64,000 nucleotides of DNA, from contig OZ025265.1 of NCBI GenBank assembly GCA_964019135.1, forward strand, positions 27,441,143-27,505,142, read 5' to 3'. The translations under genes were made by a program, and so were the position numbers. The notes under the pieces are model-generated. The model was not told the origin of the DNA. It did no database searches and worked only from the letters and a program-made list of their open reading frames with translations. The stretch comes from Arenicola marina. Taxonomy: Eukaryota > Annelida > Polychaeta > Arenicolidae. Numbering within the stretch: position 1 is the first letter of the stretch; every line of letters begins with the position of its first letter. Of the stretch, positions 5,847 through 63,682 are shown one piece after another.

Positions 5847-5848
5847 AC

Positions 5849-8800
5849 GTCTGTACACCGACGGGTGTATGACCTGTTTCTGACGTCTGTACACCGACGG
5901 GTGTATGACCTGTATTTAACGTCTGTAGAGCGACGGGTGTATGACCTGTTTCTAACGTCTGTAGAGCCACGGGTGTATGACCTGTTTCTAACGTCTGTAG
6001 AGCGACCAGTGTATGACCTGTTTCTAACGTCTGTAGAGCGACGGGTGTATGACCTGTTTCTAACGTCTGTAGAGCGACCAGTGTATGACCAGTTTCTGAT
6101 GTCTGTAGAGCGACCAGTGTATGACCAGTTTCTGATGTCTGTAGAGCGACGGATGTATGACCAGTTTCTAACGTCTGTAGAGCCACGGGTGTATGACCTG
6201 TTTCTAACGTCTGTAGAGCGACGGGTGTATGACCTGTTTCTAGCGTCTGTACGCCGACAGGTGTATGACCTGTTTCTATCGTCTGTAGAGCGACGGGTGT
6301 ATGACGTGCTTCTAACGTCTGTAGAGCGACGGGTGTATGACCTGTTTCTAACGTCTGTAGAGCGACGGGTGTATGACCTGTTTCTAACGTCTGTAGAGCG
6401 ACGGGTGTATGACCTGTTTCTAACGTCTGTAGAGCGACGGGTGTATGACCTGTTTCTAACGTCTGTACGCCGACTGGTGTATGACCTGTTTCTAACGTCT
6501 GTAGAGCGACGGGTGTATGACCAGTTTTGGACGTCTGTAGAGCGACGGGTGTATGACCTGTTTCTAACGTCTATACACCGACAGGTGTATGACCTGTTTC
6601 TGACGTCTGTAGAGCGACGGGTGTATGACCTGTTTCTAACGTCTGTAGAGCGACGGGTGTATGACCTGTTTCTAACGTCTGTAGAGCGACGGGTGTATGA
6701 CCTGTTTCTAACGTCTGTAGAGCGACGGGTGTATGACCTGTTTCTAACGTCTGTAGAGTGACGGGTGTATGACCTGTTTCTAACGTCTGTAGAGCGACGG
6801 GTGTATGACCTGTTTCTAACGTCTGTAGAGCGACGGGTGTATGACCTGTTTCTAACGTCTGTAGAGCGACGGGTGTATGACCTGTTTCTAACGTCTGTAG
6901 AGCGACGGGTGTATGACCTGTTTCTAACGTCTGTAGAGCGACGGGTGTATGACCTGTTTCTAACGTCTGTAGAGCGACGGGTGTATGACCTGTTTCTAAC
7001 GTCTGTAGAGCGACGGGTGTATGACCTGTTTCTAACGTCTGTAGAGTGACGGGTGTATGACCTGTTTCTAACGTCTGTAGAGCGACGGGTGTATGACCTG
7101 TTTCTAACGTCTGTAGAGCGACGGGTGTATGACCTGTTTCTAACGTCTGTAGAGCGACGGGTGTATGACCTGTTTCTAACGTCTGTAGAGCGACGGGTGT
7201 ATGACCTGTTTCTAACGTCTGTAGAGCGACGGGTGTATGACCTGTTTCTAACGTCTGTAGAGCGACGGGTGTATGACCTGTCCCTAACGTCTACAGAGCG
7301 ACGGATGTATGACCAGTTTCTAACGTCTGTAGAGCGACGGGTGTATGACCTGTTTCTAACGTCTGTAGAGCGACGGGTGTATGACCTGTTTCTAACGTCT
7401 GTAGAGCGACGGGTGTATGACCTGTTTCTAACGTCTGTAGAGCGACGGGTGTATGACCTGTCCCTAACGTCTACAGAGCGACGGATGTATGACCAGTTTC
7501 TAACGTCTGTAGAGCGACGAGTGTATGACCTGTTTCTAACGTCTGTAGAGCGACGAGTGTATGACCTGTTTCTAACGTCTGTAGAGTGACGGGTGTATGA
7601 CCTGTTTCTAACGTCTGTAGAGCGACGGGTGTATGACCTGTTTCTAACGTCTGTAGAGCGACAGGTGTATGACCTGTTTCTAACGTCTGTAGAGCGACGG
7701 GTGTATGACCTGTTTCTAACGTCTGTAGAGCGACGGGTGTATGACCTGTCCCTAACGTCTACAGAGCGACGGATGTATGACCAGTTTCTAACGTCTGTAG
7801 AGCGACGGGTGTATGACCTGTTTCTAACGTCTGTAGAGCGACGGGTGTATGACCTGTTTCTAACGTCTGTAGAGCGACGGGTGTATGACCTGTCCCTAAC
7901 GTCTACAGAGCGACGGATGTATGACCAGTTTCTAACGTCTACAGAGCGACGGGTGTATGACCAGTTTCTAACGTCTGTAGAGCGACGGGTGTATGACCTG
8001 TTTCTAACGTCTGTAGAGCGACGGGTGTATGACCTGTTTCTAACGTCTGTAGAGCGACGGGTGTATGACCTGTTTCTAACGTCTGTAGAGCGACCAGTGT
8101 ATGACGTGCTTCTAACGTCTGTAGAGCGACTGGTGTATGACCTGTATCTAACGTCTGTAGAGCGACGGGTGTATGACCTGTTTCTAACGTCTGTAGAGCG
8201 ACAGGTGTATGACCTGTTTCTAGCGTCTGTAGAGCGACGGGTGTATGACCTGTTTCGCACGTCTGTAGGGCGGCGGGTGTATGACCTGTTTCTAACGTCT
8301 GTAGAGCGACGGGTGTATGACCTGTTTCTAACGTCTGTAGAGCGACGGGTGTATGACCTGTTTCTAGCGTCTGTAGAGCGACGGGTGTATGACCTGTTTC
8401 GCACGTCTGTAGGGCGGCGGGTGTATGACCTGTTTCTAACGTCTGTAGAGCGACGGGTGTATGACCTGTTTCTAACGTCTGTAGAGCGACGGGTGTATGA
8501 CCTGTTTCTAACGTCTGTAGAGCGACGGGTGTATGACCTGTTTCTAACGTCTGTAGAGCGACGGGTGTATGACCTGTTTCGCACGTCTGTAGGGCGGCGG
8601 GTGTATGACCTGTTTCTAACGTCTGTAGAGCGACGGGTGTATGACCTGTTTCTAACGTCTGTAGAGCGACGGGTGTATGACCTGTTTCTAACGTCTGTAG
8701 AGCGACGGGTGTATGACCTGTTTCTAACGTCTGTAGAGCGACGGGTGTATGACCTGTTTCTAACGTCTGTAGAGCGACCAGTGTATGACGTGCTTCTAAC

Positions 8801-9315
8801 GTCTGTAGAGCGACTGGTGTATGACCTGTATCTAACGTCTGTAGAGCGACAGGTGTATGACCTGTTTCTAACGTCTGTAGAGCGACGGGTGTATGACCTG
8901 TTTCTAACGTCTGTAGAGCGACCAGTGTATGACGTGCTTCTAACGTCTGTAGAGCGACGGGTGTATGACCTGTTTCTAACGTCTGTAGAGCGACGGGTGT
9001 ATGACCTGTTTCTAACGTCTGTAGAGCGACCAGTGTATGACGTGCTTCTAACGTCTGTAGAGCGACTGGTGTATGACCTGTATCTAACGTCTGTAGAGCG
9101 ACCAGTGTATGACCTGTTTCTAACGTCTGTAGAGCGACGGGTGTATGACCTGTTTCTAACGTCTGTAGAATGACAGGTGTATGACCTGTTTCTAACGTCT
9201 GTACGCCGACAGGTGTATGACCTGTTTCTAACGTCTGTAGAATGACGGGTGTATGACCTGTTTCTAACGTTGTTAGATCAACGGGTGTGTCACCAGTTTC
9301 TGACGTCTGTAGATA
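5849..9315. repeat. 36-bp minisatellite, about 96 copies, open on both strands
   Basis: Tandem units of 36 bp built around CGTCTGTAGAGCGACGGGTG followed by TATGACCTGTTTCTAA. Plus-strand translation gives repeated VERRVYDLFLTS; minus-strand translation gives DVRNRSYTRRST. The minus frame is open for more than 900 codons (5804-8584, starting at GTG, not ATG). The plus frame is broken only by CGA-to-TGA changes at about 6758, 7046, 7586 and 9171. Variant units recur at multiples of 36 (for example CGCACGTCTGTAGGGCGGCG at about 8255, 8399 and 8579), showing block duplication of 4-19 units. No signal peptide, splice signals or known domain support real translation. Confidence 0.95.
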
Positions 9316-10336
9316 CGGGTGTTTGAACTGTTTATTGATTATCCACTTTCCAAATATATATTATGAAAACAACGTACAGTATATGAATAATAACATAATT
9401 CAATAATATGAAATGTACAACATTCTAGCAATATTGACCTACCAAACATAAAATATTCAGCATGTTCAGTGCACTGCAATTCAAAGTATATATTCAGCCC
9501 AGAAAGAAAATCTATAGAATAAGTGTCTATTATTAACGTTGATAGTAAAATTATGTTGGTCAATAGAACTTTGCATCTGTCAGAAGTTGATGTTATGGTC
9601 ATAGATTCTGAGTGCAATTTCATAAAACAAATATTTTCCTGACATATATACCTTGCTGTACACCCACAAATATTATCTAACCGATGGAGCTTAATGCAAT
9701 GAATGTCCAACTAACCAGGTAAAAAACAATAGTACAAATCTCTCGGAATTGCTCCAACATTCTTTATCTTACATAGGAAGTTTATACCAGGAATGTGTTC
9801 TAAAGGAATAAAATAATAGTCCCCAACTGCAAATTCAGGCGGCTATGATTTTGCAATTTACCTAATTATATTACTCTCACAATCTTCAGCAACTTACAGT
9901 TTACACACATATTAATTAGTCACAACATTATGATCATAAATAATACAGCCTCAATTTACTTCTGCTGGATCATTCCCTAATATGCGCAGTAGCTTCTGAT
10001 GGTCTCCTTGTAGCTTCTTGTTTCTTCCTTGCCATCAGAGAATCATGATGCTTGTTATGATGCACTGAAATGTAAAAGTATTCACAAAATCGAACGCTAT
10101 ATCTGCTGACCTCTTGTCTTTTTTAAAATAACAGTTTATTACCTTATATGCTACAGGTAAAAAATGACTGAAAGGTGCATATTTTGATGATGTAGTACCG
10201 AGGAAAGCCACACGTTTTCCATCATCCGGTATAGCATTATCTGACAAGAAAACATTTTTCCATAACTAAATGTTTCATGGGAGACAGAAAATGTATATCT
10301 ATTTTTTTCCTTTTTAAGCGATCTGCATAATTTGAC
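9316..10336. other. No gene recognised
   Basis: AT-rich sequence without motif-bearing open frames. The longest open frame (9339-9710, minus) has no recognisable domain and atypical composition. Confidence 0.5.
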
Positions 10337-13841: not shown

Positions 13842-15633
13842 GCCGCCGTTGACAACGTTTTGGAGAAAGTGAAAGAGTTTTGGTTCAAATAAGATTTAAA
13901 CTTGCTCCTGAAATAGTTTTAATGCATATAAACGAAACAACCCGGAAAGAAAAGCAGCTTCATTAAGTATACTTATTCAATTAAATGCCTTGATTAATTT
14001 GTGCCAAATTTAGCATTTTAAATTAATGACTGTTTTTTTGAAGCTGTAATATCCGTGGTGTATCAATATAAAGGGCCAGCATATGATTTTACCTATTGCA
14101 ACAAGTTAATAAGCTTATCTGTATTTCTTTCTTTTAGATGCATGAAGAGCTATACTGCAGATATGTGCAGACCTCCAGACAATATTCATTTGCCAACTGC
14201 TATTGAGTTATTTAGAATAGGTGTGGATATTTATATATATTCCTGTTATTTATTACTTAAAGGGTTTTAGCCTTAATCGTGTTCATTCCTTAATTCTTAT
14301 CTAAATTTGGTAGTGTTATAATCTATTTCTGGTAAAGTCTCTGTGTAAGGACTTCATATGCACATGACATGTACATATGCACATGAGTGAAATATATAGA
14401 ACATGTTATTATTGTCATTTATGTGAAGTACAATTAAGCATGATGTATAAGCAACTGACTGAGCCATAAGAGCAGATTAGGCTCTGTTTAGTAAACTCTC
14501 GGTCAGATTATCAAGTATTAGGCATCAAGTATTACTTTTTCTCACCTGGGTAATTTACTTTGCCTGAAATTTTTTTACATAGGTGTCTCCTCTACTAAGA
14601 TACCTTTGTATAGTTATATACTGCATCTCCAAAACTCACATGATGGGAGCTTGGCCCAGTACCTTATTATATATAATCATGTATCAAAGTAATGATCAAT
14701 CTGTCAAACCACTAATATATAAAGTAATTTTTATATTCACAGCATATTGTCAAGAGGCTGGTTAAGGCACTGGACTATTGAACACATGGAGGAGAACCAA
14801 CTCATGTTAACCCTTTAGTGTTACTGTTTCGTGAGAGGTCAAACTTGCGAGAATGGTGCTTTGTCAAGACCAGGACACCACATCTGGGGCCATCACAGGA
14901 TGCTGTGTCATGACTGTCAGAGTGAAGCACAGGTCGAATGCATGCTAATGCAAGATTTTGAAATGAAATAAGCCAGGGATTTTTAGTGATGATTTTTAGT
15001 GATGAGAAGCCAGCATAAACATGCAAAGAACTGTTAATTAACCTGTAATTGTATGCGCTATAGAACTATAATAGTTTCTTTCTCCAAATCAAAACCTATC
15101 CTTTGCACTAAATAACATAATACAAATTTCTATTTCACCGAAAGATAAAATCACCTAACAAACAAAAGCTTTTTCACTAGAAGACACAGCATATGAGAGG
15201 AGTGATACAGTAAAATGTTCATTGATTACTTTTAAACAATTGAACGTGATAATGCGCAACAAAATATTATATCATACATGAGCTTATCATGATACTTAAT
15301 AAAAGTTAAATATTACTTTAATAGGTTGATGCAGGTAATTTTATATTGATCTTTATGACCTGAATGTTGCTGAACAATCGGAAATTTACATGATCAATGT
15401 TTCAAAAAGAAGTCTCGGGTGACCCATTAGCTTTAATAGGGGCATACCCCCTTTCCCCTCTCTCCGTCGCTTTACGGTGCCCAGCTGTGGCTAGATTTTA
15501 AACATCAAAATTTTGGACATTACAACTCTTTGCATGTTCTAGATTTCTAAGTTAAAAGTAAAACAAAACCATCGCCCCCTCTTGCCTTTGGGATCAAATG
15601 GCCCGTCTCTTAGGCTCAGCGGCTCAGCCGGGG
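13842..15633. other. No confirmed gene
   Basis: AT-rich. A weak exon-like piece at 14138-14218 is discussed under rejected items. Otherwise no motif-bearing frame was seen. Confidence 0.45.
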
Positions 15634-16012
15634 GGGTGGGGGGGCGGGGTAGGGGCCCCACAATGTATACTAAACCCACAAGGTGTCCAACTCCCGCTGG
15701 AACTGAGCGACAGGCACCCGCTTCAATCTCCATTATCGCACATTTACCGCGCTTGACTTGCCCCGTAAATGCCTAAGTCCGATTTCTAAGTAATTTATTT
15801 ATTTCATCAATAAGTAAACGAGACCTGTACTGCCGTGTATTCGCGACAAATAAAGAATTATGCAACGACAACAACCAACTCCGGAACAGATTGAGCAAGC
15901 ATGGCTGACATCGCGAGAATTCGCCTGCGAGATCTTGGGCACAGTGACGTCACACCTTGTGTGTTAAGTATATGTTGTGGGGACCGCTACGCCCCCCCCC
16001 GCCCCCCCCCCC
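15634..16012. repeat. Possible foldback element with imperfect inverted ends
   Basis: Sequence at about 15634-15690 (G-rich, then GGGGCCCCACAATGTATACT) is the imperfect reverse complement of about 15953-16012 (AAGTATATGTTGTGGGGACC, then C-rich). Arms of roughly 55 bp and 80 percent identity enclose about 260 bp without coding capacity. The G and C runs align only loosely, so the exact ends are uncertain. No target-site duplication was identified. Confidence 0.5.
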
Positions 16013-16312
16013 CACCCCGGCCTTCCCCATCCACTGATTTGCTGTGCCTGTGGCCCAGTTGGTACCTGCGCCAGTAAGCCACCGATGAAGCAGAGTGCAA
16101 AGTTCCAAAGAATGAAGAAACTTTGTCTTGTCATGATCAAGAAGTGATACGAAAACATCAAAACGGTCTTGTTTTACCTTTATCGTGTAGTGTAATGCAG
16201 CATCATTGTGTTCTTACGCCATGCACCACACAGCTTTGCAGCGGTATGGTTATGTCGACCACTTGCTCTCGCCATCTTCGTTGTTGAGATGCCGCAGAGG
16301 CTGATGGGATTT
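16013..16312. other. Upstream region of the caspase-like gene
   Basis: No coding content seen. It lies between the foldback-like repeat and the promoter motifs. Confidence 0.45.
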
Positions 16313-16314
16313 TG

Positions 16315-16530
16315 TGACGTCACTGTACGGAATTCCGTACGGTGAATTTAGCCGTTTACAGACCCAATCTGAGTATGCGGGCCACGCAGCGGGAGGTTGT
16401 GGAGGAGACTATGGTCTACTGTATTCCTGTTGCGTCGGAACAACACATATGTAAATATATGCAAATAAGGAGTCACGTGTCACATGCTGCCGATCGAGTA
16501 TTTATACCCGGTATTCACGCAGATCTCACC
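16315..16530 (+). promoter_or_regulatory. Promoter of the caspase-like gene
   Basis: In order: TGACGTCA, a full CRE/ATF site (16315-16322); a 24-bp near-perfect palindrome (16321-16344, inner 16 bp GTACGGAATTCCGTAC exact); ATGCAAAT, the octamer recognised by POU/Oct factors (16459-16466); CACGTG, a bHLH E-box (16474-16479); and TATTTATA (16499-16506). With a TATA box there, transcription would start near 16530, about 85 bases before the ATG. The motifs are visible; that they work together is inferred. Confidence 0.55.
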
Positions 16531-16550
16531 ACGAGCAGACAGACCACTGC

Positions 16551-16592
16551 ATGTGTCTCAGCAAAAGAACATTTAAAGTTGCATTTCTGTGA
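16551..16592 (+). promoter_or_regulatory. Upstream ORF, 13 codons, before the caspase-like gene
   Basis: An ATG at 16551 opens 13 codons (MCLSKRTFKVAFL) ending at a TGA 24 bases before the main start. If transcription begins near 16530, ribosomes meet this first, so it could damp translation. Its ATG context (CTGCATGT) is weak, allowing leaky scanning. Confidence 0.4.
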
Positions 16593-16616
16593 GCCAGATA
16601 CCTGAACGTTTTCGTC

Positions 16617-18299
16617 ATGGCGACTGGTGGGTCATTACCCTCGACCTCGTCATTCTCGCTCCCTCCGCCGGTGAAAGAACCGACCGAGACCCATGAGAAC
16701 CCACACCACGGGGGTAAAGCGGACCACATGGCCAGGCCGGACTCATCTGACGCAATTGAGGAGGATTGTGTCGGGTCCCAGTTGGAGCTAGCGGATGACA
16801 TGGCCGAGCAGGACTCATTTTACGACAGTGAGGAGGACTCATTTTACGACAGTGAGGAGGACTCATTTTACGACAGTGAGGAGGACTATTTCAAGTCCGA
16901 GTTGGAGGTACTATCCAAGATCATCGATCAGATCATGACAGAAAATGCAAAGGAAGTACGCGAACGTTATTTTAAAGATATTAAAGGATTGATTGGTAAC
17001 ATCGTGCACGATGACGCTGGGATCAACGACTGGATGGATGATCTAGATTTTGAGTTAACCGCGGACGCGAATGACGGCAGTATTGACAATAATCTTGACG
17101 ATGCGGATGATCTCCGGAATCAGCTGTCCAATCTAAATGATTTGGCAGTTTTGTTCATTACTGCTCCAGTAGGCACCAAATGCCCTGAGCCAGAGGAGCT
17201 GGAAGCATCTGCGACACATAAAGTGTGTAAGTCTTTACTCGCCGATACAAATACTGGTAGCCGGTTAGTGGTTATTTCGTGCCACAAACAGACGGGTCAA
17301 AAAAAGCCGTTCAGGAAAATCGAATACACCTTAAACAAGTCTCGTCTGGCAGCGATTTTAAAAGATCCAGCGTTTAAGGAATATGAAGAAATTCCAGAAT
17401 CCGAAGATTTAGTAAAAATCAACAAATGGAAACTGGTCGTCCTACACGTAAGGAAAAGCAAGAATACAGATCAAAATGATAAGGTATGGCGCCTGGGCTG
17501 GCGTTCACATGGAAGCATGGACTTATTCCGTCACATGTGTGACGAACTCAACAAGTTTTATAGTGATTTCGAAAAAGACAAATCAAGAAGAAGGTTGTTG
17601 GCAGAAGACTATATAAAGTGTCTCAAAGTCACAGAGGGGCCAAAAGTGAAGGTCGACTTTGCTGCTGTCGCTTGCGTTGCAGAAATAGAGTCCGGTATCG
17701 CTACTTTTATGCTAAAACATGGCACCAAGTCTAAAATGGTTTTGGTGCTGTACAATGGTCATGGCTACGAAAACGGTGATCTCCGCTTGCATTCCCCTCA
17801 TCCAGCGAAACAGATGACCATCTTAAATGCAATCAGCAAAAGCTGGAGGAAGCCTATCCCACGTTCAATTGATATGGTCTGGATATGCTGCCATAGTTAC
17901 ATGGGCGTCAAAGAACAAAAGAAAAACGCAGACCCTCACATTAACGTCATTGAACGATACATGTGGAATAAGGGTCACTACGATTTTTGGCCTAAGGAAG
18001 GTAGTCTCTATAGTTTTCACTTGACATGCAAAAAGAATCGACTAACATCATCTATGACAACTATTACCAGGGAGACGGAGGGACGAGGAAATATAACGGC
18101 TGCATATAGCTCTCAGGCACGCGAGTTCGCGGACGAGCAAAATCGGAAAGCATATGGCACGAGATATGACAGATTGTCAAGCAATGCAATTGCTGAGTCA
18201 TCAAGCGGGGAAAATACCAGGCAGCCCCCTGCTACACTCACGGACGATCTTCCGGACGAGGTGGCCAAAATGCAACTTGAGGGTGCACCAACAGACTAA
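16617..18299 (+). CDS. Intronless caspase-like (clan CD) cysteine protease candidate, 560 aa
   Basis: A single open exon from an ATG in good context (GTCATGG) to TAA. Residues 1-65 are Ser/Pro/acidic; residues 66-89 are three exact copies of DSFYDSEE (24-bp repeats at 16812-16883); residues 90-175 are acidic and helical-looking. From 176 on, hydrophobic strands alternate with charged helices (LAVLFIT at 176, LVVISCH at 217, LVVLHV at 273). The core is VLVLYNGHG with His382 and DMVWICCHS with Cys424/Cys425, about 42 residues apart. This matches the His-Gly and Cys motifs of clan CD peptidases (caspases, metacaspases; compare metacaspase GHG and CCHSG). Family membership rests on these motifs and the strand-His-Gly-helix-strand-Cys order; catalytic activity, substrate and role are inferred. 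The tail (500-560) looks disordered. There is no signal peptide or membrane segment, so it is likely cytosolic or nuclear. No prodomain (CARD, DED, death) was recognised, and no AATAAA was found in the next 500 bp. Confidence 0.75.
   Translation: MATGGSLPSTSSFSLPPPVKEPTETHENPHHGGKADHMARPDSSDAIEEDCVGSQLELADDMAEQDSFYDSEEDSFYDSEEDSFYDSEEDYFKSELEVLSKIIDQIMTENAKEVRERYFKDIKGLIGNIVHDDAGINDWMDDLDFELTADANDGSIDNNLDDADDLRNQLSNLNDLAVLFITAPVGTKCPEPEELEASATHKVCKSLLADTNTGSRLVVISCHKQTGQKKPFRKIEYTLNKSRLAAILKDPAFKEYEEIPESEDLVKINKWKLVVLHVRKSKNTDQNDKVWRLGWRSHGSMDLFRHMCDELNKFYSDFEKDKSRRRLLAEDYIKCLKVTEGPKVKVDFAAVACVAEIESGIATFMLKHGTKSKMVLVLYNGHGYENGDLRLHSPHPAKQMTILNAISKSWRKPIPRSIDMVWICCHSYMGVKEQKKNADPHINVIERYMWNKGHYDFWPKEGSLYSFHLTCKKNRLTSSMTTITRETEGRGNITAAYSSQAREFADEQNRKAYGTRYDRLSSNAIAESSSGENTRQPPATLTDDLPDEVAKMQLEGAPTD
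16812..16883 (+). repeat. Three exact 24-bp in-frame repeats (DSFYDSEE)
   Basis: Three identical 24-bp units encode DSFYDSEE three times. Identity at silent sites shows recent tandem duplication. The Ser residues sit in acidic surroundings suited to casein kinase 2, though this is inference. Confidence 0.9.
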
Positions 18300-19111
18300 T
18301 CTTTTATATTATTGAACTTCAGGAGTTGGATTGGCGATGCTGCTTGGTTCCTGCCACTGGTCAGAGAGAGGACTTATCTGTCCTGATCTCTGTTTTGATT
18401 CCCCAGATGACCGGAAATGAAACGCAGCCTCGAAATATATTTAACCAGTGCACCGGATGTAAACAAACACACGTTTTAATGTGCATATATTACCCGAATA
18501 GCTGATTGTGTTCTGGCATGTGATATTACCACAGGAAATAACAGCAGCCCATAATTAAGGATAACTGACCACAGCATAAATACACTAATCGCGTTGCTGA
18601 TAAGTTAGCATTATTTAAATCTACTAATTGTTGATTAGTGCATATGTAGGCGCGTAGTTTCTGTCCATGCGATATCATGAATTATAAGTGTTTTAGATAG
18701 TTTAATATATTGTTTGATGTAAAAAGGAAATATATGAAATAATACAATTGCTATATATACATATACAGGCTATACACATGATCGTATGAAAACCTTTTTC
18801 GCGAATTCGTAAATATTAGAATAGAGATTTTCGACTGGATATAGTTTCTGTGGTCCACCCCCACAGATCACTATAGCATATGAATGACTCGCATGATTTT
18901 AATCCATGTCTTTTCTCAACGGTGTGTCTTGTGACATGTCTGATGAATTTCTTGTTTTTGTTACAAGTTTAAGTTACCGGGTTGAGTGGCGAGTAAAGCG
19001 AGAGTCCAGGAGAGGAGCCTATAAAGGTGGGGTTCTGTCAATGGTATCAGAGGCGGGAATATATATATGGCTTAATATGACGTCGGTTATGCGTTGTTAT
19101 GTCGATTGGAT
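18300..19111. other. No gene recognised
   Basis: AT-rich 3' flank of the caspase-like gene. No canonical poly(A) signal was found by eye, so the transcript end is unknown. Confidence 0.5.
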
Positions 19112-19444
19112 GTTGGTTTAGTGACACGTCGGTGATGTACATTGGTTTGGTGCCGTGTCGGTGATACACGTTAGCCTAGTGTTGTGTCGGTGATTAACGC
19201 TGGTTTAGTACCGCGTCGGTGATATATGTTGGTTCACTGACACGTTGGTGATGTAAGTTGATTTAGTACCGCGCCGGTGATATATGTTGGTTTACTGAAA
19301 CGTTGGTGATGTAAGTTGATTTAGTACCACGTCGGTGATATATGTTGGTTTACTGACACGCCAATGCATCTAGAGGAAGCAACTTGGTATTCAAGTTTTC
19401 AGTAGAGCATATGACTGTAATGATAATACATACTATATATTAAT

Positions 19445-19918
19445 ATGCCTGATGAAATAACATTCGCCAGTATGAATGTAAGAGGATTAGCTGACCATCA
19501 GAGAGCTGATGTGTTTAATTGTTTGCGTGATAAGCGCTACTCAATATATTGTCTACAAGATGTACATTGCAATGATAACTTAGTGTATAAATTTCGACAA
19601 GATCGGGGGTATGATATGGTTATTACTACTTATAGATCATCAGATAGGAAATATAATGCGTTTCAATATACAATTTTGCAACTAATCTTGCCCACAAATC
19701 ACCAGCTCTATCTATGGGGTATAACTGAGACGGATCTTTGCCCTTTGTCTAAAACTGAAACGGAAACAATAGAACATTTATTTTGGTCATGTGGGGAAAC
19801 CCGGATGCTTTGGCAGCAAGTGAAATATTGTTTTATGGCCCTTTTTATATATTACAAGCTATCTATCGATGGAAAACATTCTTTTAGGCGTGATAGATGC
19901 AAAATATCAATTGATTGA
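19445..19918 (+). pseudogene. Fused LINE ORF2 remnant: endonuclease start joined to C-terminal zinc motif, 157 aa
   Basis: From an ATG, residues 5-65 match the start of the AP-type endonuclease of non-LTR elements (FASMNVRGL, YCLQDVHC). Around residues 65-80 the frame jumps directly to the ORF2 C-terminal region (TETIEHLFWSC, zf-RVT type). Of the expected Cys-Cys-His-Cys zinc ligands, Cys99, His111 and Cys116 remain, but the second Cys is Ser102. The central catalytic endonuclease residues and the entire reverse transcriptase are absent. The join keeps the frame open. It ends at a stop, and the remaining C-terminal sequence continues in another frame. Confidence 0.8.
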
Positions 19919-20120
19919 TCAAATATTCCTTACCTTTAAGAAATATATTTATAAGACTCGATGTTTGGGTGATAAGTTGAATGTAAAGCATGGGTTTCGT
20001 ATGTTGAAACAGTTATACGCTGTATACTATTATATAAGCGAAAGAACCCCTGGTGGAAAACGAAGCCAAATGTATAAGTTAAAATGGGAGGGTCTTGAAA
20101 AGTTTTTTGCCACTGTATGA
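19869..20120 (+). pseudogene. LINE ORF2 C-terminal end in a shifted frame
   Basis: Encodes LTFKKYIYKTRCLG and later RSQMYKLKWEGLEKF, the pattern found after the zinc motif at the end of L1/Tx1-type ORF2 proteins. It overlaps the end of the fused frame, so a frameshift lies between about 19830 and 19900. Confidence 0.75.
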
Positions 20121-20520
20121 CTGGAGGTGCTGCTATTTTCTGCAGGTTGAAAATGATAACCATATCCTATATATCTCTTTTGGGGTACTGTATAATGTTT
20201 TGGGGGTGTGCTGCTCGTTTATCGTGTACTGTATACTGTCTGTTCGGTGCCTTGATGAAATAAAGAATTATATTTTTTTAAAAAGACACGTTGGTGATGT
20301 AAGTTGATTTGGTACCGCGCCGGTGATATATGTTGGTTTACTGACACGTTGGTGATGTAAGTTGATTTAGTACCGCGCCGGTGATATATGTTGTTTACTG
20401 ACACGTTGGTGAAGTAAGTTGATTTAGTACCGCGTCGGTGATATATGTTGGTTTTTTAAACGTTGGTGATGTAAGTTGATTTAGAACCGCGCCGGTGATA
20501 CACGTTTGCTTAGTGCCGCG

Positions 20521-21098
20521 TGGATCAGTACCAGTCTACTACAACAAGAATAGCCTGGCAGCTACAAACTACAAACGATTCAAACGATCTTGAAACAACC
20601 GGTTCTCCTCCGCCAGCCTGGCCAACCCGTTCGATTGTACCGTTACGGTTGGCCTGCCTGCGTTCATTCATACTTCGCTTCCTTTACTCGAGGTTAGGAC
20701 TTTATTAGGCCTACTAACATGCAATATCTATTCCTAAAACCATGTGTGACGTCACGCCTTGGTGTCCCTTTTCTAACAAAATGCACCAAGACACAGACCT
20801 AGCTGTGTTTTATTAAGTTAAACGTAAGTGTGCAAAAAACATTATTTAAATAATCAAGGACAAAACAGGGCATATTTATATTATCTTGATAATGAATATG
20901 TTCTCGTTAGTATTGACTCGCGTGACTCCGACAAATGTCACGGTGTAATCAGTCGAGCCGAGTCGAGCTATCTGGTCCAATGTCTAACTTGCAGATTTCA
21001 ATAGAAACAATGACATGCATAACTCAATATAAACGTAGCAAGGCCCACAACTAGGTGGGGCGAGGCAGCCAAGGCTAGAAGTCGGATTTAGAGCAACT
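20521..21098. other. No gene recognised
   Basis: Unique spacer between the minisatellite and dispersed repeat copy 2. It contains TGACGTCA near 20747 but no coding sequence. Confidence 0.5.
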
Positions 21099-21494
21099 CT
21101 TATTCGGTGCTCACACCCCGTTAAAAGAGGAATTAACAAAATAAGTGGCCAAATACAGTATTCACTCAAGTAACTTCAAACATCCAATAAAGCATAATGA
21201 ATTGAGCATAGCATAAAGGAGATTATTCTAAATCATCAACATGATATAACACTTGTCAACAAATGCGGCGTTTATCGTAATAAATATCTTCATATATATG
21301 TTGTTTTCGCGTGATTGTTTAAAATAAAATTGCCTTATTTAGCAATCAACATAAAAATACAGATATGTATATATGTAATTACAAGTAAAAAAGATAACAA
21401 GTTAAAGAAGTTGACTGATCAGACTAATTGTGAAAGAATCTTATCAATTATAGAACATGTTTCATGCTTACCGCAAAGACTATAATTATATATT
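21099..21494. repeat. Dispersed repeat, copy 2
   Basis: Matches 1-402 in the same orientation, with a few indels, ending at the same CTATAATTATA. Sequence beyond differs from copy 1. Confidence 0.85.
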
Positions 21495-21899
21495 CTAAAA
21501 TGTTTTCGCAGGGATGTATTGTCTCAAATGCTATGAAATTAGGAAACTTTGCAATGCATTAACCCAATCATGTATATGTTGCGAAAGGTACATTATTCAG
21601 AAGAGTATTTTTTCACTAATCGCATATGAATCCCGGCAACATAGGGGACATCTTCCAACCCAGGTTGGAAGACATGGGACACGGTGCCTAACACTCGAAG
21701 GTCGAACGTGTTGATATGGATCTCCTTTTGTGTATTACGGTTCAAAATGCGTCACGGTGTGGCATTTGTTGCAGGATGAGCCCCAGTAACCATGTTAAAT
21801 GTTGTGTTAATGGAGAGCTAAAAAATAAAACGCTACCTGTTGGAAACAATGTGACCCCCTTCACTGGCCTAGCTGGAATTCGTTACATAAATAACTAAA
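21495..21899. other. No gene recognised
   Basis: A palindromic short repeat, CTTCCAACCCAGGTTGGAAG, lies near 21652-21671. No coding sequence recognised. Confidence 0.45.
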
Positions 21900-22262
21900 C
21901 AGGCCGTGTCTGATTACAATAGAAAGGTTCTGTCTAATTACAATAGAAAGGTCCTGTCTGATTACAATAGACGGGCCATGTCTGATTACAATAGAGAGGC
22001 CGTGTCTGATTACAGTATAAGGCCCTATCCGATTGCAATGAACATGCACTCTCCGAATACACTAAACCGGCCCTGTTCGATTATATATAATAAACAGGCC
22101 TTGTCCGATTACAAGACAGGCCCTGTCCGATTACAATAGACAGGCCCTGTGCGATTACAATAGATAGGCCCTGCCCGATTACAATAGACAGGCCCTGTCC
22201 GATTAAACTAAACAGGCCCTGTGCGATTACAATAGACAGACCCTGTCTGATTACACTAAACA
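21900..22262. repeat. 24-bp tandem repeat, about 15 copies
   Basis: Units near GATTACAATAGACAGGCCCT followed by GTCC, with substitutions and length variants (AAACTAAACAGG, TATATAATAAACAGG). Non-coding. Confidence 0.88.
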
Positions 22263-22802
22263 TGGCCTATTTTGATGCACTGTGGACGATGCATTAACAG
22301 CTACGTACGGACTAGGCATGGTAGCGTCATCTGCATAACAAATTGAGGAATGCAATAATATTTATAATGTAATCAGCGTAAAGGCTAATCAATAGGGGCC
22401 TAACATTGAGCCTAATGGGGACGGCAGTAGTGATGGGTCGAAGATGATATCTGTTCAAATATTGTTATGGTTTATATCAGTGTTGTGCGATCCATGATGT
22501 CAAAGGCATTGGATGCGTCACAATAAATATAAATCCGAACTACTCTTTTGTCCGTGTCTAGCAGAGTGCGATCTAGTACTAACAGGTCTGTTTGTAGAAT
22601 AGTTGAAAGTGGTGCCATCTTGCGGACACATCTTACGCCAGGCAAATGTGGTGCCCTCTGGCGATTATCAGACTTACTACGAACTCACGGAAACGGCGCT
22701 TCAAGTGTGTGGTGCTATATCGTGTCATTTATGCCCAGAAGAGTAGACCAAGTAATATGTTGATACATATCGGGAGCTACTAAACTGGGGTAATTGCACG
22801 AC
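22263..22802. other. No gene recognised
   Basis: Unique spacer; the small frame at 22548-22763 has no recognisable motif. Confidence 0.45.
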
Positions 22803-23330
22803 GTACTTGAGTGACAAAAGGTGTGATACGGTGACCTGCCACCAAGACACCGATAGGCCTACACCCAGGCCTAAACCCAGGCCTACACCCATGGCCTACA
22901 CCCAGGCCTACACCCATGGCCTACACCCAGGCCTACACCCAGGCCTACACCCATGGCCTACACCCAGGCCTACACCCATGGTCTACACCCAGGCCTACAC
23001 CCATGGCCTACACCCAGGCCTACACCCATGGCCTACACCCAGGCCTACACCCAGGCCTACACCCATGGCCTACACCCAGGCCTACACCCATGGCCTACAC
23101 CCAGGCCTACACCCATGGCCTACACCCATGGCCTACACCCAGGCCTACACCCAGGCCTACACCCAGGCCTACACCCATGGCCTACACCCAGGCCTACACC
23201 CATGGTCTACACCCAGGCCTACACCCAGGCCTACACCCAGGCCTACACCCATGCGCATACCACTGTCAGCGATCATGTTAGCCTACCACTTTGACAATAA
23301 AGGCTTGACTCGTTAGTCGGTCTTGCTCAT
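22803..23330 (+). repeat. Dispersed repeat copy B, carrying a minisatellite
   Basis: The outer parts align with 11648-11800 (ACCAAGACACCGA upstream; GCGCATACCACTGTC, TTTGACAATAAAGGC and GGTCTTG..TCAGCC downstream). The interior has been replaced by about 400 bp of a 12-13-bp array. Confidence 0.78.
22854..23252. repeat. 12-13-bp minisatellite, about 32 copies
   Basis: Mixed units AGGCCTACACCC (12 bp) and ATGGCCTACACCC (13 bp), with a rare ATGGTCTACACCC. The seed is the single TACACCCA found in copy A. Open frames here (repeated Tyr-Thr-Gln-Ala or Leu-His-Pro-Gly) are artefacts of the repeat. Confidence 0.93.
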
Positions 23331-24544
23331 CAGCCCTCAGCTTATTCACTCTAAAACACGCTTCTTAGCAACGCGTTGTAAACGCGCCTTGTGACTCTAT
23401 CAAATATAGCTGTCGTTTACATTTTAAACATTTGCGTTTCTAGGCTGAGGTGTGGGTGGGGGGGGGGGGGGAGAGGGGTAAGAGGGGTATCTCTTCTCGG
23501 ATCACAAAAATAAAGTCCCTCAAACCAAAACCGGCCCCCCTGGATCCGATCCTAAAACCGGTCCCCCTATCCAGATTTTCTGGATCCGCTCCTGTATATC
23601 TCTACGGAGCAAGACCAGTTGAACAGTTCGACAACGGTTTCGTCCTTACTAAGCGAACACAACAAGAGCTCAATATAGTCTTGATTCTCTAAAATTATCA
23701 TTCGTCGGTTATCGGTGCCGAATATATCCAGACGTATTACTGAATTTCACTTCCAACTAACACTCATTACGAGGGTTTTCCTACTACACGTAGTGAACCA
23801 ATATTAAACAACAGGTTTAGTTCTTTCGTAAGCTAAACTTTTAATGCATTATGCTTTGGAGAACCTATATGTTGTTATCTGGTTCACCATGGCCCAAAAT
23901 GCACCTAAATGTCACTATTGCAGATCTAATGGCAAAAATTCTCGGCCCCCGGAAGTGGGAACACTGCCCTTAACACGTGCAATCCACCGATGAGGTACAC
24001 ACATTGTATGAAGAGTCTTTGTCAAGGCCCAAAAAAGGTGGCAAAACTAACAATGGACGAAGTGTTTAACTAAGGTCAGCATACCAAGCATTGCTCTAAT
24101 CAAGCAAAGAGACTTGTTCCGCTAGCAACGACAGAACACGATAACTAGGTTCATAAATTTGTATTATTAACCGATTTTAATGTAGAAGTTTTATGATGCC
24201 ACGAGATCCATCATAACGTTTTGCGTTCAAGTTTCAGCATAGATAGCAACGTTATGACTTTGTCACCAGCAGCCTCCGTCACGTGACAAATTCGAGGCCA
24301 TGTGACCACACACACGCTGTCTGGTCGCCATCTTGCTGCGAGAAGGTCATAAAAACCTTGCACTTAAATTTCACCCGTTTTGCATTACTCTCTGGGGCGA
24401 AATTGTTACAGTTATGTTGTTATTTTGAAGACTATCTGCGAGACCTTTTGAACGTCTTCACCCTCCCCGCGAAGGCAAGAATTCAAAATTATAATTCTGA
24501 TATTTACCAATAGGCCTTTCAGTACTCAATAAAGCATTAAAAGA
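23331..24544. other. No gene recognised
   Basis: Includes a G run (23456-23471) and C-rich patches. No recognisable coding sequence up to the Gypsy remnant. Confidence 0.5.
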
Positions 24545-25720
24545 TTAAAAGAAGGTCAACGGCAACTGGCACATACCGTATACTGTCAGTGTACTGCCTT
24601 CAGGGTGTGTGAAGGCGTGAGGTCTGGAGGTACTTCTTTCCTCCCATTGCTCACATCAGACGCAAAAAGTCTCTTATAGGTGGCCAGGGGTATGACGTTA
24701 CCTTCTGCGCCAGTGTCGAGCTTGCACGTCATCTGTAGTCGATGCTGGTTTCTTTCTTACAGGTAGCTGAATCAGGGCCTGTGTCGAATGCTTGTCATCA
24801 TAATCCATGGCGTCGATGTTTATAGTGTCGAAATACAGCTCTGCAAGGTCAGCCTGTATCTCGTTCACCTTCTTGTAAGGTATGGGCTGAGTTCGCGTTC
24901 TTTGTGAGCGACACACTTTTTTTAAATGATTTAGTTTCCCACATAGCAAACATGTGTCACCTTTAGCAGGACAGGCGTCCGGGCTATTTTCATGCCTAGT
25001 GCCACATTTGCCAAAAGCGTTCTGTTGAATCTTCTGGCTGCGATATGTGGGATTTTGCGGCGGCCGGTTTGCAGACCAGGTCTGAGATCTGGTCTGCAGG
25101 TCGCGCACTGTTCTGCCGCTGTGTAAGTCGTCCAACTGCTTGCGTGGGGTTTTGTCAGTTCTTGCAATGCCAAGCGCTGGATCTAATGTTAGTCCTCTTC
25201 TCTGTGAAGTAGCTTTGACTGTTTCCGTTCAGATGAAACACCAAAGATTAACGTGTCAAATTGATGTGTTTATCCTCATCATTGTACTTACAATTCGCTG
25301 CAATGATGCGGATGCGTTTTACAAATGTGTCGATGCATTTGCCAGACTCCTGTCTTCAAGCTCGAGCTTGTACCGAGCGATGCGGAAGTTGCTTCTGGGT
25401 CTAACAAATTCAAATCGCACACAGTAACTGTTTAGCTTCTTGGCTTGATCTGCGTTGAGGTTCCATGTGTTGACCAGGTCTCTGCCTTCCTCTCCTGCCC
25501 AGAAAAGGAGATATTTCACTTTCCTATCTTCGTTCAAGGCAAACAGAGGTCCTTCCAGCATAAGTTCCACAATTTCTTGAATTTGGCGAGACCTCGTGGA
25601 GCGTCCGACACGTGCCAGTCCATGCTGGGAGTAGGCAAGCCTTCCAGGCTCATAGCCATTGTGCCTTGCGACTGTGAGTGGCGGCTGATTCAAAAGTTCA
25701 ACACTTCCAGTAGTTACTAC
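24545..25720 (-). mobile_element. Gypsy-type LTR retrotransposon remnant: gag and start of protease
   Basis: Read on the minus strand: a capsid-like segment (25319-25693) with KVKYLLFWAGEEGRDL and PRSNFRIARYKL; then a nucleocapsid segment (24698-25135) with a CCHC zinc knuckle, CLLCGKLNHLKKVC (24911-24952), preceded by a second knuckle that has lost a Cys; then, in a shifted frame, the aspartic-protease motif LDTGAEGNVIPL (DTGA codons at 24706-24717). This order is typical of Gypsy gag-pol. Frames start at non-ATG codons and are broken by at least two frameshifts. Reverse transcriptase, integrase and LTRs are absent, so this is a dead fragment. Confidence 0.82.
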
Positions 25721-27229
25721 CGCAATACTACCACAAATATTCCAAGTGTGTATCCACCGCTTCTGGCCCCGGGATCAAACGTCCACATCACTAACGTCAA
25801 CGTTGGAAGATGTACTGCCAAAGTTCAATGGTGCAAAATACTTCTCAATACTTGACGCACGCAGTGGATACTGGGACATCTCGTTGGACTAGGAAAGTTC
25901 GCTACTAACGACCTTCAATACATCGTTCGGACGATACAAATACGTGTATAAGCTTGACCCTATCATATAAGTTTGAGCGATAATAGGGATAAGCCAGAAA
26001 CAGCAGGATCATCGCCTAAAGTAGCATCGGGAGACCCAATCCGTCCCGCCGGAGTGGTCTCCCTGCTCATTGGCTTGGACTTAACGAAAAGCCCTCAACC
26101 ATGAGAACAGTACACGCCCACGACAACAGATGCCTACACACTGCATCAAAACTCACTTGTCAATCTTGTGACATCATTGGGAATGTCTAAACAACGCCCA
26201 GATGCAATGATCCCAGAAATAAACCCGCCGGACCTCACTTTTGCCACTTTGACGAACGCATTTATACTGATAAAGTCCTATTAAGATAAATTCTTATTTG
26301 TTTGTCTTCTCTTAAAAAAAAAGAACTATGAGCTAAACAAAATCGTGGCACGAACACTTTAGAGCCTGCGTTGTGGCTTTGAAGTCCTATGGCAGGCGTG
26401 AAAAATATTTTTCCCGGGGTGCCGGAGTATTTGGGGACCAATAAAACTGTGACAAAGCTATCATGGAAATTTCGACGAATAAATTAAAAATGGATATAAC
26501 CCGCGAATAAACCAAATATGGCTTGGTTTGTGGTACAACCTAAAATAGATTTATTTCATATAAATCAGAATCATTCATGCATAACATTCATACATATATA
26601 TTATATCTTATACTTCTTCAATCATTATAATTCCTACTATGCATTCTAATTGTATACAGGTAATATTAAAGCTCTAAGATTTCTACATCACTAATTTAGG
26701 TTAACTAGATAGGAATAGTGACAATACTTGCGCATGGGGTTTAGTTATTCCTAGAAAATTTATACTTTATGTGTAAATAACAGTTCAAGTATCCTTACAA
26801 CCTACACCAAACCCCGCTATGCCATCCTTCATCAGTTACAATGGAGCCGTGTTTGTAGTAAACTGTCTGTAACAAAAAAGTCCCTTTAACTAGGTCCAAT
26901 GGCAGACTAACCATGATTTTTAACTGTTTTTTTAATATACTCGTTAAACAATTGTATAACTATCTCCGATCTTTAATACTAATATTTAATATCGGCTATG
27001 CTCTCTATATTTAGAATAATTACAAGAAAAGTTGAGAAGATTATGCTAATATAAATATCTTTGAGTGTCACAGGTCAACCTCTGTGGCTCTGATGTCAAC
27101 AAACCCAACAGAGGTTGCTAACGGGTTAATTAATAAAACATTCGCCAGGGCACGTTCGTAATCATAATGTGCTCGTGATTTTCATGGTCACGCTCACATG
27201 CATAATGCACCCGCGACCTACATAGGATG
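25721..27229. other. No gene recognised
   Basis: AT-rich. A short hairpin, CAACCTCTGT (27076-27085) with ACAGAGGTTG (27108-27117), lies near the end. No coding content seen. Confidence 0.5.
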
Positions 27230-27632
27230 GTCACATGGATAACCCGGACTCTATCCGACTTCAGAGGTGCCACCGACTTGGAGCGAAACCGCAACCAGGC
27301 AGGCCCCAAAACAAGCCAAGGCCCATTATCGCCAAATTTGCGTTTTCCAGGAAAGACAAAGGTCTGGAAAAAGAAGCAACCATTGCGGGGCACTAAGCTG
27401 GTATCGGTGGGTCTGGAAAAAGAAGCAACCATTGCGGGGCACTAAGCTGTTATCGGTGAAGATCTACCCAAGCCTATGCAAAGGGAACGACGGCGTCTGG
27501 TGACAATTATAAAGGCAGCCAGAAAGGATGGCAAGAGGGCGTCCGTGGTAGAAAACAGACTGATCATAGATGGCAAAACCTACAACGTGGAAACAGCCTC
27601 CACTCTCCCCGAAAAGTGGCTGAAAGACTTTT
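27230..27632 (+). pseudogene. LINE ORF1-like fragment with frameshifts and internal duplication
   Basis: Pieces in different frames match LINE ORF1 order: PIIAKFAF, then KVWKKKQPLRGTKL, then EDLPKPMQRERRRLVTIIKA, then RLIIDGKTYNVETAS, ending WLKDF and a stop at about 27632. A 49-bp segment is duplicated in tandem (27362-27410 and 27411-27459), which breaks the frame. It is a different ORF1 family from the one at 412, as shown by the DLPK motif and the C-terminus. No ATG start and no ORF2 follow. Confidence 0.72.
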
Positions 27633-29464
27633 GATAACGTCACGTATGAGACGGTTCCTGACTGTTTTCAGTAGCTAGTTTCAGCTCTGCGGTGTAATCT
27701 CGGTCGTACACAGGGAACGATGCTTGAGATTGGTGCAGGTTTCAGGTACGGTATAGAGAGTACGCGTATGGAGCAGAGCTGCTGCCACGAGGTAGTGAAC
27801 CTGTGGTTCACCTCTTGGACTACTGGAGTACAATATTTTGTTGTGCTCTCGGTCGTTCGATCGATCACTTGGCTGGTGTTGGCACCTCGCCATCTTGTAA
27901 CTCATTGCCTGGTATAAGAGCTATATAAGCGTTTTTTACTTTTTGTGTTCTGTTTGTAAATTTGTATGTTGGTTTGCTAATGAGAAAAATCTACGATGGA
28001 AAATATTGAGCTGAGCCATCTACTTGAAACATTGTGACATAACGTAGTTACTTCTCGGTATATAGTTGAAAACGTTTAACATGGGAGCCTATGGAAATAA
28101 TCGAACGTCATTCAATATGACGTACTTCCGTTTTTACGACTTCACTTTTCTTTACCATGATGGACGATGTTAAGGCGTACAAGAACCAGGCTGGAACTGA
28201 GATTGTTGTGGCTAATGGCAGGGATCATACAGCTCCAGATAACTAGAGAGTAAAAAACGTGTTTGCCGTCTTACTATGGACCGCAGTGTCCTTTGTAGGT
28301 CTGCTCGTTTTAGGTACCCGTCATGGTGAAGTATAGCATTTTTTCTTGGTAATTTCGTCAAGGGCTGATGCTGAAGCGCTGATGCTCCTACCGCCGGGCT
28401 GGCGTTGCCATGCATCATGTCATGACGTCACCATGGCATCATGACGTCAAACACTCAGCTATTATACGATATGGCGAAATCCGGTTTACTTTACGTCGAT
28501 TACAATGCGTCATCAGGGACAACTGCCATGCGTTACTTTTTTGGCCTGGTGTGCGTCAAAAATAACGTTCGTAGCTAACGTGCTCCTATGATATGTTGGG
28601 CTTGCTTTATTTTCAGCTACGTTAGCAATAGCTACCATCACCCGAATTCGTAAGTAGGTGTATTAAAAAAAAGGCCATCTTGATCATTTTGTGATCGTCA
28701 AATAACGTCATGTGACGTCTCGATGACGTCATTTTAAATAAAAGGTAAACTTCATAGCAACATTAATATTGTATCAAGAGAATCGTTCTTGACTTTTCGC
28801 TTATAGTGCGTCGCCAGCATCAGATGTGGAATACCTTGTTTGCATTTGACTTGTTTGCATTTGATAGCTACGATTAATCTAGAGCAAGCGTTATGTTGGA
28901 AGGGGGTCACTTGGGGCTGTGGTGGGATGGTGGTAGATGCTTATGTTATTGATATAGATTGATTGGAAGAGGTGTTGTTGCAAAACGAACTCGACTGGTT
29001 TCAGCAGTGGGGTGCGCACCGTATGGTATGGGAGTTTCTTGGAGATGCCCTTCATACAGACCGGTCGCATTTGAACTGTTCCAATGTTTAGTTCTTGTTC
29101 AAATAGTCACTTTAAGGTATAAAACCATATAGTAAAATCATGATTACATTCAATGTAATCTTAATCCTGATATTTCCAAGTGATCGTAATAGATTACATT
29201 AACAATTTAATCACCTCATGCCTGGTGCCCAGGCCAAATAGGGGGGGGGGTGCGGGGGTCCCATGCAAAATTTACTTAATCCGCCCGGAATAGTAAGTTG
29301 GATGGACCGATGCGGCGTGGATGAGTTTTGACATCCAACCTCTTGTCCCCATCGACTGATTGTATCAAGGTTTGACGTACCCCCCCCCCGCCCCTCTCAT
29401 CCCCCTTTATCGAGATTCGATTCCGTGATTCGATTAAAATCGTTTATTTTATCATTATTATATT
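27633..29464. other. No gene recognised; CRE-like sites
   Basis: Non-coding. Full CRE palindromes TGACGTCA occur at 28423-28430, 28442-28449 and 28724-28731, with TGACGTCT at 28713. Long G and C runs lie near 29240 and 29380. No gene start could be tied to the CRE sites. Confidence 0.5.
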
Positions 29465-29665
29465 TATTCCCGATTTTAATATTTAATTCCCGGTTTTAAT
29501 ATTTAATTTCCGGTTTATATATTAAAAAGTATTAGTAAACTCAAGGTTAAACTCCCAATTTTACTCATTTACTCATGGTTTGAAACATTTATTCCAGGTT
29601 TAAATGTTTTATTCTCGGTTTGAATGTTTTATTCCCGGTCTGAACCATTTAGTGCTGGTTTAAAT
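29465..29665. repeat. Degenerate short tandem repeat (TTCCCGGTTT)
   Basis: About ten loosely spaced copies of TTCCCGGTTTTAATATTTAA-like units, drifting to TTTATTCCCGGTTTGAATGT. Period is about 17-24 bp and irregular. Confidence 0.7.
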
Positions 29666-29934
29666 ATATAACTAATATATAAATAATATATAAAACTAAT
29701 ATATAAAAATATTGATTAAGAGAAACAAACTTGAATGACACTAACGACCTTACGTAGATATAGCCAGATATTCAATATGATATTTTGAAACAGTGATAAC
29801 TGAGATAAAACTGTCCTTTCACCTGGTTCCTCGGAGTTGATTTGACGACATCCGCGGCGCTGTTGTCTTCATCATATTGGGCAGCGCCGTTCTGGCGGGC
29901 TGGTGTGTGAATGCATCATTCCTTCAACAGTCGT

Positions 29935-30665
29935 GAGTTCGGGTATGCGAGCGGAGTAGTCGGACTCCGCGGAGTGCATAACCGAAACGCTGAGATTGTG
30001 TTCCGATAAGGCGGTCACGTGGTACATTTTACTCCCGAAACTTACTCCCCACCCAGGGAAGGATCACGAGGATTTCCAGCATGGCGTCCAGGCCCAACAA
30101 TACGTAAAAAAAGATATAGTAGTACTTCGACTTGCCAAAAGTCTGTAAATATTATTATAACAACTAGAATAAAAAAATGAATACAACACGCATCCGTTGA
30201 TTTTGTTATGGTACTGTTTAACGATCTCCAGGATTTGTGCATTTCAGCAGGTGCAACATTCACGCGGACCGCGGATTTTGCGTTCGCTTTATCTTGATCG
30301 GCACATGAGCTGACAGTATGAGTGCGCATGCTCCAAATATCTGCGCCGATTACTCCAACCGCGTATCCGAACTCAACCCATGTACCAACCAACAATTATC
30401 ACTATCGCCACCTAGCGAACACACCATTCGAGCATAATTAATAACGTCATACATACAAGCCACGCACACCTTCAGAACTGTCATAACGCAAACGATATCA
30501 ACATGATCAGCTCAAACGCTGATTGGCTGATAATTCCCAAAACGTGAAGTTGATCGAAACTTTAGAACATGCGCTAATCTAACGATGCGTGAAAAACCGA
30601 CCCTCCAATCGCCCAGTTGGACGAAAACTTGATTTCTTGCAATGAACTTTACAACGTATTGCATC
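29935..30665 (+). repeat. Diverged copy of the 49.56-50.83 kb sequence
   Basis: Several blocks align in order and orientation with the left inverted-repeat arm: GGAGTAGTCGGACTCCGCG (about 29953) with 49581; GCATGCTCCAAATATCTGCG (about 30327) with 49613; and 30395-30665 with about 50545-50820, including GTGAAGTTGATCGAAACTTT. The VNTR in between is absent here. This shows a dispersed family of at least three copies in the window, counting the right arm. Confidence 0.7.
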
Positions 30666-31189
30666 GTGTGAACATAGCATAACTGATTATCTTAACGGGC
30701 GGCATGGAGATGATACTACGAGGAATGGACAAGTTTGTCACTGCGTTGGTGACTGTCACGTGGCGATCTTTAATTATATAACGATTATATAATTAGGAAT
30801 GCCAGGACCAAAGCAAACAAAGATATCACACGCGCTCAATTCTTCACGCCTAAACCGTGCAGCCGGCTGGTTCCCAGCACTCAAGCGTTGACTACAATGA
30901 GTGCGCGTCAGAGAGCTGCAGCAAGGCACCAGCGTGATGCGCACTCATTCTAAGAGCACGTTTTGTTGTCGCTCCACAAAGCATCTAAACCGGAAATAGA
31001 ACCCGCGAGAACTGTGCAGTCCTATTGCGACCAAATCTCATGCACAAAACTCGACTGTCAGCGAAAATGTCCTGGCTTCGTGGAAGTTGTCAGACGGGTA
31101 CGTTTCGGCGCAGAAGAAACAAACATTTTCGCATGTCGCTTCTTCCTGGTGTTTTAAACGTGTAATCTTTGTTCGTATTTGTGTAAATT
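30666..31189. other. No gene recognised
   Basis: The frame at 30963-31157 is Cys-containing but matches nothing I recognise. Its right end overlaps sequence that looks like decayed LINE. Confidence 0.45.
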
Positions 31190-45000: not shown

Positions 45001-45234
45001 CGAATTCATACTCCGACACTAAGCTCCGCCCACGTCGGTCAAAAGACGAATCCCTACTCCGACACTAAGCTCCGCCAACGTCGGTCTATGGACGAATCCC
45101 TACTCCGACACTAAGCTCCGCCCACGTCGGTCTATAGACGAATCCCCACTCCGACGCTAAGCTCCGCCCACGTCGGTCTAAAGACGAATCCCAACTCCGA
45201 CACTAATCTCCGCCCACGTCGGTCTAAAGACGAA
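36008..45234. repeat. 46-bp satellite array with higher-order structure
   Basis: About 200 copies of a 46-bp unit: GACGAATCCCTACTCCGACA then CTAAGCTCCGCCCACGTCGG then TCTATA. A recurrent 32-bp variant lacks the TCGGTCTATAGACG part, so CCCACG joins directly to AATCC. Variants (CTAATCTCC, CCTGCTCC, GCCCGCG, GGTAAAAAAGACG, GGTCAAAAGACG) recur in a fixed order, giving higher-order repeats; one block of about 290 bp at 36240 recurs near 36640, an offset of about 399 bp. The unit holds a GTCTATAGAC palindrome. No frame stays open for long. Confidence 0.95.
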
Positions 45235-63676: not shown

Positions 63677-63682
63677 ATAAAC
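63677..63682 (+). terminator. Poly(A) signal AATAAA for the secreted-protein gene (right copy)
   Basis: AATAAA about 160 bases after the stop, in matching position in both copies. Confidence 0.5.

Follow-up and report, generated by a model that had tools for sequence, protein, structure and literature searches.

A multigene family of putative caspase-fold cysteine proteases in the annelid Arenicola marina

Judged from its sequence, an intact gene of Arenicola marina probably belongs to an animal multigene family of cysteine proteases with a caspase fold (clan CD-like). The gene lies in a stretch of 64,000 nucleotides, hereafter the window, and its features are collected in Table 1. The family was previously unlabelled and is without a Pfam model.

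Table 1. Coordinates of the window gene and of associated features (position 1 is the first nucleotide of the window)
Feature	Position	Strand	Basis
TATA-like TATTTATA	16499..16506	+	118 bp 5′ of the ATG; consensus match alone
5′ leader, ~101 bp, homologous to copies L003, L008 and L012	16516..16616	+	blastn of 1.5-kb flanks
Putative caspase-like gene, intact single frame, 560 aa	16617..18299	+	Open frame and related loci in the genome
24-bp minisatellite, acidic SFYDSEED units	16806..16891	+	Three units here, about one in L002
Conserved N-terminal region, residues 88-172	16878..17132	+	D132, W139 and A163 invariant in 11/11 long members
Conserved hydrophobic strand LNDLAVLFITAPVGT, residues 173-187	17133..17177	+	L176, V178, L179 and A183 invariant in 11/11 long members
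YNGHG, candidate catalytic His382, residues 379-383	17751..17765	+	G-H-G in 19/19 aligned members
DMVWICCHS, candidate catalytic Cys425 (codon 17889-17891), residues 419-427	17871..17897	+	Cys in 18/19 aligned members
LINE remnant with zf-RVT, downstream neighbour, outside the gene	19427..20120	+	zf-RVT E 1.9e-8

Results

The window gene

The gene runs without interruption from an ATG at 16617 through 560 codons to a TAA at 18297-18299. From stop to stop the frame measures 568 codons; in 60 first-order Markov simulations of 64 kb, the longest such frame had 236. It had been described as intronless; being one open frame, the coding sequence agrees with this, the statement being limited to the CDS, and the 5′ UTR may contain an intron. 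The absence of a known prodomain was likewise upheld by the Pfam, NCBIfam, PADLOC and PHROGs searches, none of which gave a match above cut-off where a cut-off exists: the window protein had nothing above it in Pfam or NCBIfam, no match whatever in PADLOC, and two weak matches only in PHROGs (best E 0.054).

The TATA-like string TATTTATA is also found in copy L002; it is absent from the other scanned copies, some of which have different TATA-like strings. In the protein, SFYDSEED units begin at residues 67, 75 and 83. The acidic triple repeat of the original prediction is present in the window copy, and it is recast here as a minisatellite of variable length, of which L002 has about one unit. 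The conserved region that follows (residues 88-172) had no Pfam match over cut-off and is perhaps helical, helices being seen only in a low-confidence model. Next to it, LNDLAVLFITAPVGT is a candidate for the first core strand. By eye, the protein has no start resembling a signal peptide, and it is probably cytosolic.

A family of long and short members

Protein queries were run against the assembly that contains the window (867 Mb in 762 contigs), and matches at E <= 1 were taken: 15 with the window protein, 27 with a distant member and 21 with a short member. After merging by hand, the family numbers at least 29 loci spread over 8 contigs, with 13 long and 16 short members. The long loci (at least 13) are distributed over contigs C20 (five), C9 (four), and C3, C6, C18 and C268 (one each), and the short loci (at least 16) over C14 (eight), C11 (six) and C20 (two). 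Six C14 copies form a tandem array from 15205922 to 15259389 with a spacing of ~10.6-10.7 kb. This array of short members occupies C14:15205922-15260219, its unit is ~10.6-10.7 kb, and several of its copies have stops. Among the disrupted or partial loci, L004/L009/L012 is one locus in two frames, L008 is a fragment, and stops interrupt several copies on C14 and one on C11.

The alignment comprises 19 of the 29 loci, without the L004 locus, the fragment L008 and eight further loci; two of its entries are incomplete, L076 with a frame of 184 codons and L078 with one of 206. In the 19-member tree the long and short groups are separated (support 100/100). Their profiles match each other in hhalign (probability 98.2%, E 3e-14) at 17% identity over the aligned stretch, which covers both motifs. 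The sequences of the short members suggest a compact order of strand (NAMLCIVAP), helix, strand, helix, strand-NGHG, helix and strand-QC, and those of the long members suggest the same layout with an insertion of ~100 residues; this layout was read from the sequences, the first strands of the two groups having been left unaligned by MAFFT. The low-complexity parts vary by group, from the acidic minisatellite of the window copy and L002 to the Pro/Ala-rich start of L014/L015 and the long Thr/Ser/Pro-rich tails of L011/L013.

Conservation of the His and Cys motifs

Are the two motifs kept among copies that differ so much? In the window protein, His382 is 42 residues from Cys424 and 43 from Cys425, so the positions originally given for YNGHG and DMVWICCHS were borne out in the 560-codon frame. 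Across the 19 aligned members the His and the Gly after it (G383) are found in all, and the Cys in 18; L005 has Phe instead. The spacing between His and Cys is 41-49 residues in 18 of the 19 and 60 in L015. A hydrophobic stretch directly precedes both the His and the Cys motif, the clan CD order, in the sequences of 18 of the 19 members. Residues before the HG are N/S/A/I-G, and in the short subfamily the motifs read FNGHG...F.QC[YF][SG]H. Two residues before the Cys (Cys-2), long members have I, A, G or T and short members A.

Among the residues invariant in the 11 long members are G381, H382, G383, Q399, W422 and S427. Cys425 is kept in 10 of these 11, while Cys424 is confined to the window copy and copies L002 and L003. 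Conservation thus singles out Cys425 over Cys424 as the candidate catalytic residue.

A motif pattern (two hydrophobic residues, xHG, a spacer of 34-50 residues, two more hydrophobic residues, CxS/G), devised after the sequence was seen, arises in 15 of 20,000 shuffles of the window protein. Among 287 frames of at least 100 aa from the window and loci L001-L029, some of them counted twice where loci overlap, the pattern was matched by 14, all of which are family members; it was not matched by L005, L015 or the disrupted L004 locus.

Since the His-Gly and Cys positions are kept between subfamilies that are only 17% identical, a working dyad is suggested. The caspase-type His/Cys pair of the original prediction accordingly gained support from this conservation, from its clan CD spacing and from its alignment with SGHG...SCHSG of metacaspases. 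It is unlikely that the members instead act mainly as caspase-fold scaffolds or decoys (pseudoproteases) in many of which the dyad is a leftover. This reading could draw on L005, whose frame is open though its Cys has become Phe, on the known S1 pocket residues, which appear to be missing from the family, and on the several disrupted or partial loci listed above; however, a Cys in 18/19 and a His-Gly in 19/19 members at such divergence are hard to explain without catalysis. Family members are thus more plausibly proteases, with Cys-dependent cleavage predicted.

Tests of the fold and of known peptidase families

Profile searches against Peptidase_C14, CHAT (PF12770) and Peptidase_C13/legumain (PF01650), which had been proposed as a check, did not lend support: none of the 19 members passed a Pfam cut-off, and for CHAT and legumain there was no match whatever. 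L005 reached 14.7 bits (E 0.025) against Peptidase_C14 (PF00656), below the curated cut-off of 21.4 bits, over residues 300-355, which take in its GHG at ~330; the other 18 members had no Peptidase_C14 match. L005 (C6:9713954-9715276), in whose open frame the catalytic Cys is replaced by Phe, is thereby the sole member of the 19 that touches Peptidase_C14.

A metacaspase profile was built from yeast Yca1 and 11 plasmid caspase-family proteins. The profile of the 11 long members aligned with it so that His matched His and Cys matched Cys (P 5e-4, probability 31%; before trimming, P 0.0013 and 19%). None of 120 column shuffles scored as high and the reversed profile gave P 0.3; when 12-column blocks were shuffled, the score was reached 3 times in 100. 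Masking both motifs raised P to 0.22, and the profiles of all 19 members and of the 8 short members aligned at one motif only (P 0.018 and 0.013, respectively). On account of the masked-motif value, the block shuffles and these single-motif alignments, the connection with C14 is attributed to the two motifs. PDB sequence searches, among them those with the long- and short-member profiles, found no clan CD chain; the long-member profile had one weak unrelated match (E 0.16) and the short-member profile none. Two AlphaFold runs on the window sequence alone gave only low-confidence models (pLDDT 33.6 and 34.0).

A caspase-like core fold is judged likely for the family. There is a low probability that the two motifs are convergent and belong to some other alpha/beta fold, where HG and C-x-S would bind metal or take part in a different chemistry. 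The low pLDDT of both models, the PDB profile searches of long and short members and the confinement of C14-profile similarity to the two motifs are all in keeping with it, but the order of the motifs, their spacing, the hydrophobic stretches before them and the Gly after His fit clan CD as that clan is characterised in the relevant text of PMC4357240.

Sequence change between copies

For recent pairs, dN/dS over whole frames was 0.57-1.33 (n=10 pairs, among which L071/L074 is an older pair with dS 0.85). With another aligner, the values were 0.97-1.41 in four long pairs and 0.42-0.62 in three older pairs. After 30 comparisons, positive selection was not convincing for any pair. In a simulation, the observed changes were placed randomly on the first 1,500 bases in 2,000 runs. 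The mean number of stops was 8.7 for L006/L007, 4.6 for L011/L013 and 3.5 for L014/L015, while the actual frames are open; stop-free runs amounted to 0%, 0.75% and 2.65%, respectively. For the window copy (L001) and L002, the mean was 1.3 stops with 28% of runs stop-free, which is no evidence of frame maintenance. Indel lengths are mostly divisible by three; L011/L013 and L014/L015 depart from this through single-base indels, and L006/L007 through a pair of 23 and 10.

Origin and genomic surroundings

No relative was found in a set of 5.8 billion proteins (7995, 2351 and 7993 candidates scored). Collections of phage, viral, plasmid and GTDB sequences likewise yielded none, the collections scanned by DNA being confined to non-animal genomes. 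The suggestion of a transferred gene is unsupported: no microbial or viral relative appeared in these searches, while ~29 copies sit in the host genome. Homology of the window copy to L003, L008 and L012 ends abruptly at ~16516 (L001 position 1399/1400). The neighbouring C20 copies L003 and L012 have more than 1 kb of upstream DNA in common; the window copy and L003, compared over 1.5-kb flanks, share only ~101 bp before the ATG. It is highly improbable that the gene was acquired from bacteria or viruses or is carried by a mobile element. A single coding exon and the LINE and satellite neighbours would suit such an origin, but the empty microbial and viral searches, the short shared flank of L001 and L003, and the arrangement of copies in local clusters and a tandem array argue against it. 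The preferred, tentative reading is a lineage-specific effector.

That the gene lies beside mobile DNA was confirmed by the LINE remnant from 19427. The remnant interrupts an array of 57-58-bp repeats at 19110-20521. Elsewhere in the window, a 36-bp tandem array (5847-9333, ~97 copies, 93% match) has several open frames, one of 1157 codons.

A large inverted repeat takes in the window from 13844 to 64000 and the next 20 kb (C20:27505143-27525142), each arm being at least ~30 kb. In its outer part, 13844-33399 pairs in inverted orientation with the 20 kb that follow the window, at 98.3-99.4%; in its inner part, 33400-53274 matches 54308-64000, inverted and in pieces, at 87-96%, satellites being lowest. 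A 200-N gap (53275-53474) is located in the spacer. The window gene and L002 lie on opposite arms. Either a genuine palindrome or a false duplication of two alleles in the assembly could account for this structure; the remaining family is independent of the question. Also present in inverted copies are a 246-codon frame (33884-34624 on the minus strand and 62776-63516 on the plus strand), which begins like a signal peptide and matches nothing in Pfam above cut-off, and a 46-bp satellite array (36010-45241, 48994-49365 and 58459-61278).

Discussion

In the proposed mechanism, a caspase-like core would follow a conserved N-terminal region and a low-complexity segment that changes fast. Within this core, His382 and Cys425 would form a dyad, each at the end of a core strand. 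Cys425, activated by His382, would then attack the peptide bond. Genes in immune conflict often change quickly between duplicates. Because of the copy number, the fast change and the clustering, a diversifying effector role in immunity or cell death can be proposed tentatively. It is conceivable, though less likely than not, that this is a new family of caspase-fold cysteine proteases of some animals only, intronless, clustered and in tandem, with a pocket unlike those of caspases and metacaspases, and serving as an immune or cell-death arsenal beside ordinary caspases. Animal clan CD proteases are generally held to be caspases, a paracaspase, separase and legumain-type enzymes. If the proposal is true, it would extend this list by a new set of candidate immune proteases whose specificity pocket differs, and current profile libraries would prove to overlook caspase-like genes of animals. 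PMC8195603 describes TRADD-N domains that expanded in particular lineages of marine animals, a suitable backdrop from a different family.

Comparison with known clan CD families

According to the relevant text of PMC4357240, the Cys-His dyad of clan CD sits at the ends of strands 3 and 4, and a Gly beside the catalytic His is conserved across all clan CD families. The dyads given there are 144/186 in caspase-7 (spacing 42), 133/179 in PmC11 (46) and 91/140 in MARTX-CPD (49). The window family shares the order from His to Cys, the spacing and the Gly next to His. MARTX-type CPD and clostripain (C11) are akin to it in the dyad, the Gly by the His and the spacing of 46-49; neither they nor other clan CD families showed a sequence relation to the family profiles in the PDB searches.

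Metacaspases and bacterial caspase-family proteins (PF00656) have SGHG and SCHSG or CCHSG in the same order and with a hydrophobic stretch before each, as in the family. Metacaspases constitute subfamily C14B, are defined by an Asp at Cys-2 and are specific for Arg/Lys. In contrast to their DxCHSG, no acidic residue is found at Cys-2 in 19/19 family members, and the long members have a Trp at Cys-3, unlike metacaspases. Similarity is confined to the motifs, with none detectable outside them.

Animal caspases are marked by Gln at Cys-2 and by Arg residues that read Asp at P1, the S1 residues being those given in PMC4357240. Animal caspases (C14A) share with the family the His-Gly and Cys, a spacing near 42 and the same host, but their motif is QACxG, and 0/19 family members have Gln at Cys-2. 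The lack of both an acidic residue and Gln at this position suggests that the specificity of the family pocket is neither of caspase type (Asp) nor of metacaspase type (Arg/Lys). The host genome has 38 PF00656 matches among 40 candidates scored, on C4, C5, C6 and C20; by coordinates, no family member is among these 38. One of them, L041, reads MFFIQACQGG, the animal caspase form, as expected of an animal host. The host caspase matches lie in separate exon-like pieces, whereas the members of the window family are intronless in their coding sequence.
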